Assembly (NCBI GenBank): GCA_002104985.1
Contig: MCGO01000154.1
Coordinates: forward strand, 25,451 to 89,450
DNA length: 64,000 bases
Origin: Rhizoclosmatium globosum
Taxonomy: Eukaryota; Chytridiomycota; Chytridiomycetes; Chytridiales; Chytriomycetaceae
Reading direction: 5' to 3'
Shown here: in pieces, positions 55,641 through 56,757 of the stretch
Numbering within the stretch: position 1 is the stretch's first letter
Layout: the number at the start of each line of letters is the position of its first letter
Position numbers and translations under genes: made by a program
The notes under the pieces: generated by a model
What the model saw: only the letters and a program-made list of their open reading frames with translations
Database searches by the model: none
Told to the model about the DNA's origin: nothing

Positions 55641-56757
55641 ATGGCAAGAACCGCACAGACTGCAAGACGGAGCACTGGAGGCAAAGCTCCAAGAAAGAGG
55701 ATTGAAACAAAAGCAATCAAAACAGCAGCAAAGAAGCGTGGCCCAAGGAATCCTGGAGACTCTGCAGTCACAGGACCTCGGGGAGATATCATATCTCAAA
55801 TAGTGGGTATTGCAGGGTCTGACAGCCAAGGATCCAGCTCGGTTCATCAAGGATCTATTACAGTTGCTCTTGAAGCAATGAACAGGATCATACAGTATGG
55901 CTGTGTTTCAGCAGTGGGTGATCCCCTTAACATCACATCCAACATGTCCAAAGTTCCTTTCTATAACTTTGGAGACTTGAAAGCAGCGTTTCCGATTACC
56001 GAAAATGCGCCATTCTTGGATGGTTTGCCAGCCAACGGATTTTATGAGCGCATTGGTGTAAATGAACAAAGGGTTGTCATGGAGCAAAGTTTGGCATTTA
56101 TTAGTGCAAAACAGAAACACTTGAGTTTGCATCAATGTCAGAGGTGTCTAAAGTGGAATGGACAGATTGCACTTTTGCAGGGATTGACTTTAGAAAAAAA
56201 GTGATGACAACCCTCAAGGACAAAGGAATGGTTATGGTCCATGTCATTTCTCAGACCAAGCGCAAGTAAGATACAGTTCATTTTGTTGTTGTGTTAACAG
56301 TTGTTTCAGTGGTCGTAACTCTGCCCCAACACACTCTACCATCATTGTGATTGAAGAAGATTCTATTCTCCTGTTTCAGCCTCACTTTCTTGGGGAATCT
56401 TGGCCAAGATCCAGTGTAGGCTTACTATCAGAACTTCCAGCTCGCTGCACAAGAAACATTTATGTCACAAATGGCCATCAGTCCATCACCAATGATTGCT
56501 CCTATCATTGCTTGGATTTTATCCGGTACTATGCAGCCCTTCCAACTAACCATGGCCACCCACGATGCCAAGCAAGAAGATATGAACGTGCTGTTGTAAA
56601 GTGTGAATATCCTCAAAAATCAAAGGCTCTATTCTGCAAATTTCAAAGTACTGATGGCTTTAAGAAAAGTTGGGATGCATTTGATGAAAGTATTGAAGAA
56701 ATACTACTTGAGAAAATTGAGCAATCAGAGAACCCAAATGATCTCAATTATGAATGA
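55641..56757 (+). CDS. Protein with a histone H3 tail-like N terminus fused to an unknown domain
   Basis: The first 19 residues are [19 protein letters not shown]. Counting as in H3 (Ala1 after Met), the tail is colinear to about residue 24. It keeps Arg2, Thr3, Arg8, Ser10, Thr11, Lys14, Arg17, Lys18 and Lys23. Position 4 is Ala, 9 is Arg and 27 is Thr, where H3 has methylated lysines. The rest does not read as a clear H3 histone fold; TVALEAMNRI faintly recalls the H3 alpha-N helix. The initial frame closes at 56204. A 53-nt intron (56089-56141, donor GTTTGG, acceptor GTCAG) or an 86-nt one (donor GTGTAA) joins it to VSKVEWTDCTFAGIDFRKKV. A second intron (56266-56309) leads to NSAPTHSTIIVIEEDSIL and a Cys/His-containing end. 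No known gene has this layout to my knowledge. Confidence 0.7.

Follow-up and report, generated by a model that had tools for sequence, protein, structure and literature searches.

A Putative Histone H3 N-terminal Mimic Opening a Non-histone Protein, with Genes Close to Contig Ends of the Chytrid Rhizoclosmatium globosum

The genome of the chytrid Rhizoclosmatium globosum contains at least 10 near-identical copies (by genome search) of a gene whose predicted product opens with a close likeness of the histone H3 tail, lysine 4 being replaced, and continues into a body that is not a histone. Judged from sequence comparison, this tail is a conserved mimic of the H3 N-terminus, present in two fungal genera. 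The genes lie close to contig ends of subtelomeric appearance, and many of them share their contig with an open reading frame resembling the TET/JBP dioxygenases.

The gene family and its H3-like tail

The window, by which is meant the whole stretch of 64,000 nucleotides that was analysed, covers C62:25451-89450 and reaches the end of an 89,450-base contig in an assembly of 56.9 Mb. Its copy of the gene lies on the plus strand at 55641..56757. The H3-like tail (55641..55697) comprises Met and residues 1-18, with the substitutions K4A and K9R, and is followed by an unconserved basic linker (55698..55781), in which residues 20-38 are identical to two homologues at 0 and 1 of 19 positions. The body begins in exon 1 (55782..56265) and ends in exon 2 (56310..56757), which encodes a conserved core consisting of His220, Gln235 (Asn in a diverged relative on contig C101), Gln269, Asp274-Cys275 and Cys279 in the numbering of P0001. 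Two introns had been proposed for this gene, and one was found, a 44-nt phase 2 intron (GTAAGA...TTTCAG, 56266..56309, plus strand); the C101 relative has a candidate intron of 46 nt that agrees with it in position and phase. The second apparent interruption, around 56.12 kb, is due to a frameshift in the window and C371 copies, and the frame is open at this point in six other copies. A homologue search with the window ORF in its frame-shifted form gave no match.

An intact two-exon frame of 357 aa is found in six copies (C377, C246 twice, C388, C35 and C360), which differ from the C377 reference by 0-3 bases in 1074 (n=6). The copy on C179 has a frameshift close to its end, beyond which telomere-like sequence follows, and that on C384 is truncated by the contig end. 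The tail is present in all 10 copies, with residue 1 changed in one of them: the intact C360 copy (C360:341252) has Lys in place of Ala1, a change that should abolish the N-terminus of the mimic and that counts against strict constraint. A deposited sequence with 99% identity at 100% query coverage is the R. globosum hypothetical protein BCR33DRAFT_837334, modelled at 360 aa with a 3-residue insert that is absent from the Obelidium proteins described below.

The resemblance to H3 is strong and confined to the N-terminus. The ORF at 55641 is identical to the H3 of R. globosum itself at 20 of its first 25 residues, Met counted; the identity is 17/19 in the first 19 residues and 5/19 in the following 19. 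When PDB chains were searched with phmmer, histone H3 was matched over residues 1-34, the best match having E 3.5e-5. Of the 130 sequences found at E<=1, the best 60 were all H3, with alignments ending at residue 34 or earlier. As a control, 200,000 random N-termini were generated with Met fixed and a composition enriched in basic residues, and none exceeded 8 identities to the 19-residue H3 start. The 357-aa protein matches no Pfam family at E<=10, in a search where filtering removes most matches with E above 0.1, and the 45-residue N-terminus alone gives one weak match below the cut-off, to the PAF domain (E 0.19). The N-terminus of PAF15 resembles that of H3. These comparisons bear out the main claims of the earlier note, namely that an H3 tail opens a non-histone protein, that it carries K4A and K9R, and that no H3 histone fold follows. 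The further claim that the first 24 residues are colinear with H3 agrees with the 20 identities in 25, but the associated 'K27T' is less secure, because colinearity decays beyond about residue 25.

The body lacks a histone core in Pfam, and a complete H3 variant is thereby ruled out. Of the 20 identical residues, only 4 share their codon with one host H3 gene and 6 with another, arguing that the gene is not a recent copy of H3; together with the intact copies, the differing codons rule out a recent H3-derived pseudogene. More generally, the tail might be a product of chance, such as a basic N-terminus serving in nuclear localisation, or a relic of H3. Basic residues do come after the tail, and the frame of the window copy is broken, as such an origin would allow. 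However, the Thr, Gln, Ala, Ser, Gly and Pro positions are conserved among three proteins as well as the basic ones, six of the 10 copies are intact, and neither the body nor the codons resemble those of H3. Chance or relic is strongly disfavoured and must be regarded as most improbable.

Scans of the genome for similar N-termini returned mainly H3 and the present family. The motif ARTxQTAR has 20 matches, compared with one in a reversed control, consisting of 10 H3 genes, nine copies of the family and one ORF on C269. The looser motif MA[RS]TxQ has 39 matches, compared with 6 in the control, and these are the same 20 plus 19 others. Eight of the 19 were read and none (0/8) continues like H3, so the idea of a genome-wide crop of MARTxQ proteins was rejected; the remaining 11 include C112:945852 (MARTKQ). 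The C269 ORF (L070:4703-5470) is unrelated and single-copy, and has no Pfam match at E<=1. It opens MARTTQTARRTTNGPEF, agreeing with H3 at 10/19 positions and carrying K4T, K9R and S10T, and this start without lysine 4 could be chance or a second mimic. Three unrelated database proteins, P0004, P0005 and P0006, gave weak profile matches (E 2.2-4.0). Each has an H3 tail that retains K4, and none matches a histone in Pfam. One is a 219-aa basic protein (source 'ena'), another an Aphanocladium album F-box protein, and the third a VWA/U-box protein in which the tail comes after 23 residues. A search of phage records led nowhere, and none of 31 pattern matches in viral contigs was confirmed.

Two further members of the family were found, both in Obelidium mucronatum, which belongs like R. 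globosum to the Chytriomycetaceae (Chytridiales): P0002 (46% identical) and P0003 (45% identical), which open with the H3 tails MARTRQTAGKSTGGKTPKK and MARTPQTASRSTGGHAPKR, respectively. A profile search of 5.8 billion proteins, with the best 8000 candidates scored, yielded no family member besides these three. Twelve of the first 19 columns are invariant across the three proteins (M, A1, R2, T3, Q5, T6, A7, S10, T11, G12, G13 and P16), whereas the 19 residues after the tail share 0, 1 and 5 identities in the three protein pairs; the tail is thus conserved beyond its surroundings. Position 4 is Ala in R. globosum and Arg and Pro in the Obelidium proteins, and is Lys in none of the three. In the same order, position 8 is R/G/S, position 9 is R/K/R, position 14 is K/K/H and position 18 is K/K/R. 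Though drawn from only three sequences, this pattern speaks for selection to maintain an H3-like N-terminus, with lysine 4 either unwanted or unneeded.

The same comparison altered the view of which residues matter. The earlier note had defined the mimic partly by K9, K14, K18 and K23 and had suggested a tail open to acetylation and closed to methylation. Residues 9, 14 and 18 vary among the homologues and the K23/K27 region is unconserved, and the acetylation-site idea was dropped because its sites (K14/K18/K23) vary. What is retained instead is the extreme N-terminus and the STGG segment, a combination that suggests readers of the H3 N-terminus.

A different use of the tail would be as a soluble decoy that competitively inhibits H3K4/K9 writers or H3 readers, the role of the body being unrelated. 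There is a parallel in Neurospora, where, in PMC3248561, ectopic H3K9L or H3K9R is described as causing loss of DNA methylation, and DIM-5 as requiring H3 R8-G12. Replacement of K4 in all three proteins, and of K9 in two of them, would suit a decoy of this kind. In the Obelidium proteins, however, Gly and Ser take the place of the R8 that DIM-5 needs, and for this reason a reader of residues 1-6 is more likely than a sponge for an H3K9 methyltransferase. In addition, most of the protein consists of the body, which is well conserved, and sponge action would demand high expression. A decoy is thus considered unlikely.

The body domain and its TET/JBP association

The body matches no family above the Pfam cut-off, and a body profile found no match at E<=10 in the PDB. 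Several weak matches were taken as noise: XTBD (E 0.17, P0002), Nop14 (E 0.0072, in a low-complexity insert of P0003), PPK2 (E 0.083), and a YopT-type cysteine-protease model that was the only NCBIfam match of P0002 (E 0.13). NCBIfam and PHROGs searches were otherwise uninformative on the family.

A lead comes from the order of conserved residues. The three homologues and the one diverged relative on C101 share the arrangement His...Gln/Asn...Gln-x5-Asp-Cys, and the order His, polar residue, Gln-x5-Cys is typical of Ulp1/adenain-type peptidases. As in these clan CE enzymes, a His is followed by a polar residue after a predicted hairpin and by a Gln 6 residues before Asp-Cys; the predicted hairpin of the body is two residues shorter than that of Ulp1. 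A helix begins near Asp-Cys in an AlphaFold model of low confidence (mean pLDDT 32.4). Unlike Ulp1 and adenain, the body has DCS or DCT for DCG and no profile match, with no clan CE family (Ulp1/C48, adenain/C5) at E<=10 in Pfam and no match at all in the PDB. The residue order suggests that the body may be an Ulp1-like cysteine peptidase, as a lead and not as an assignment to the clan. By eye, the C101 relative keeps His220, Gln235 (as Asn), His237, Gln269, Asp274-Cys275 and Cys279, and has lost Cys177, His278 and Cys298. No H3 tail is found in the 680 bases upstream of its second exon, and thus, unless an earlier exon has been missed, the tail looks like an addition to an existing domain. 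The MA[RS]TxQ pattern likewise has no match at this locus or at those of further body relatives on C301, C110 and C334.

If the body is a protease able to recognise H3 tails, the attached tail could be a pseudosubstrate that occupies and regulates the active site. The tail starts exactly at the N-terminus in all three homologues, and the candidate catalytic residues are retained in the one relative that was read (C101), as such a model would predict. The difficulty is that this relative shares the core yet shows no H3 tail in the sequence examined, and the lack of any clan CE profile match at E<=10 also weighs against the model. Regulation by a pseudosubstrate is accordingly given little credence.

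The neighbour of the tail gene in the window is a 395-aa ORF (53855..55042, plus strand), here called TET/JBP-like on the strength of a Pfam Tet_JBP match with E 0.013 and 15.2 bits, below the cut-off of 34.9. TET/JBP dioxygenases bind iron through an HxD...H motif. The ORF contains HFD and then GG and His downstream, seen by eye only, and its AlphaFold model, like that of the body protein, is unusable (mean pLDDT 32.8). A PDB search with this ORF found no relative of the TET/JBP kind. A Tet_JBP profile search of the genome at E<=0.1 gave 6 matches that did not include the window ORF, and its control gave a single sub-cut-off match, in E. coli. The ORF does match the Tet_JBP loci on C110 and C334 weakly (E 0.003), and these loci pass the cut-off together with their neighbours in frame.

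Copies of the TET/JBP-like ORF occur on the contigs of six of the 10 tail genes (C62, C371, C360, C388, C384 and C179), and among the copies listed there is none on C246, C377 or C35, which carry the other four. A diverged, interrupted copy at C142:57378-58468 lies on a contig with no H3-tail gene. Relatives of the body, at C101, C301, C110 and C334, lie less than 2 kb from four of the six genomic Tet_JBP matches and on the same strand; the remaining two matches (C1 and C17) have no body relative adjoining. Since the two contigs of each pair, C101/C301 and C110/C334, score nearly alike and look like two versions of one locus, two associations are counted and not four. Thus the idea of a TET/JBP-like neighbour holds as far as the adjoining ORF and the pairing of body and Tet_JBP at two further loci are concerned, with the identity of the window ORF itself remaining weak. 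As read from these loci, the body domain is linked with TET/JBP more broadly than the H3 tail is.

A repeated block at contig ends

In all 10 copies the start of the gene is separated from a contig end by 0.2-17.2 kb, and each points towards that end, although proximity alone is weak evidence because repeats often break assemblies. The right ends of four copies (C371, C360, C246 and C179) pass into TTAGGG-like tracts, and TTAGGG arrays are found at the contig ends of C371 and C388 only. End position, orientation and telomere-repeat junctions are those of a telomere-associated repeated block. The left border of the block in the window opens with (T)AGGGTTCTATACTGTTGGATTAGGG and lies at 47125..47160; the sequence joined to it differs among all five copies compared, that of the window being one of them.

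Within the block lies a 645-aa ORF of unknown family and without a Pfam match (48732..50669, minus strand), and close to it a 214-aa ORF (50931..51575, minus strand), also without a Pfam match and perhaps part of the same gene. A second copy of the 48732-51575 region on C246 is 90% identical over about 3 kb. A 13/26-bp minisatellite (55156..55510) separates the TET/JBP-like ORF from the tail gene, and a 141-bp tandem array (56848..57761) lies 3' of the latter. Repeat analysis also located an interstitial telomere-like TAGGGT tract (61093..61143), and about 160 bp from it is a reverse transcriptase ORF (61303-62784, minus strand; RVT_1, E 1e-19), possibly a LINE of chromosome ends. Just proximal of the left border, at 43820-46510 on the plus strand, are an NB-ARC/NACHT ORF and then a long tandem-repeat ORF that appears TPR-like by eye. 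No transposase was matched at E<=1 in the 7 window ORFs scanned.

These features bear on whether the gene belongs to a selfish block or is a host gene for the chromatin of chromosome ends, which would recruit chromatin factors to subtelomeres to the benefit of the host. The location of all 10 copies close to contig ends and the homologues in a second genus are what a host gene would lead one to expect. On the other hand, the near identity of copies within repeated blocks is more like that of spreading subtelomeric elements, as are the minisatellites and the reverse transcriptase ORF nearby. A host function of this kind is unlikely.

Proposed role and comparison with known systems

The interpretation preferred here, which is held tentatively, is that of a telomere-linked protein that opposes silencing at chromosome ends. 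Removal of Met would expose a free Ala1-Arg2-Thr3-x-Gln5-Thr6 end, which could be bound by host proteins that recognise the unmodified H3 N-terminus, either PHD/ADD-type readers or pockets of the LSD1 type. With a residue other than lysine at position 4, K4 methylation could never switch this binding off. The body, a candidate cysteine peptidase, would thereby be tethered to chromatin regulators, or the regulators would be kept occupied, and the neighbouring TET/JBP-like enzyme, where present, would act on methylated DNA. The outcome would be less silencing of the heterochromatin-prone ends that bear the genes. In the host genome, 25 matches to DNA methyltransferase-family stretches and 5 to SWIRM domains count in favour of this tethering and anti-silencing model; a genome search for SRA/UHRF1 gave 0 matches, but its control was blind. 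Transposon-borne fungal TET/JBP enzymes have been argued to be anti-silencing (Kojima 2025, PMC12730594). Counted against the model are the four of 10 copies with no TET/JBP-like copy listed on the contig, the lack of any PDB match to the body profile, the sub-cut-off score of the window TET/JBP-like ORF and its absence from both the genomic Tet_JBP matches and PDB relatives of that kind, the Ala1 substitution on C360 and the frameshift in the window copy.

A more elaborate version, which is quite doubtful, would make the block a selfish telomere-linked element with a two-part anti-silencing kit. Its TET/JBP enzyme would act on methylated DNA, and an Ulp1-like peptidase, brought to silencing complexes by the methylation-proof H3 tail, would strip SUMO or ubiquitin.

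The frequent proximity of the H3-tail gene to a TET/JBP-like gene hints at built-in interference with gene silencing. Gene-bearing blocks repeated at chromosome ends are known from subtelomeric Y'-type elements. The R. globosum block is likewise gene-bearing, repeated at ends and joined to TTAGGG-like sequence, but no helicase was matched in the window ORFs scanned, and its cargo is the TET/JBP-like ORF, the H3-tail gene and the 645-aa ORF.

Like the transposon-borne fungal TET/JBP genes, the TET/JBP-like gene is found in a repeated, mobile-looking fungal context, in this case with no transposase detected. The hosts named in the abstract of PMC12730594 are Pucciniomycetes, Agaricomycetes and Pezizomycetes, whereas the present host is a chytrid, and the words chytrid, protease, peptidase, Rhizoclosmatium and Obelidium are absent from the main text of that paper. 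No comparable H3-tail protein turned up in the part of the open-licence PMC literature that was covered.

The closest parallels to the tail itself are the histone mimics of influenza NS1, SARS-CoV-2 ORF8 and LIG1, which, as described in PMC10208167 and PMC7585203, are short H3-like segments that engage H3 readers or writers. As in these proteins, an H3-like segment occurs in a non-histone protein, and similar engagement of readers or writers is proposed here. The motifs in the known examples, as those sources present them, are short and internal or C-terminal (ARSK, ARKS and the LIG1 K126 site). In contrast, the R. globosum protein copies 19 residues from the true N-terminus and is fungal and subtelomeric, and the R. 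globosum and Obelidium proteins all have K4 replaced. The three natural peptides, differing at position 4 and mostly alike elsewhere, offer a ready test of K4-dependent readers. With its long N-terminal H3 copy in two genera, the absence of lysine 4 from all three proteins and a TET/JBP-associated body, the family would extend histone mimicry to genetic conflict at chromosome ends in early-branching fungi.
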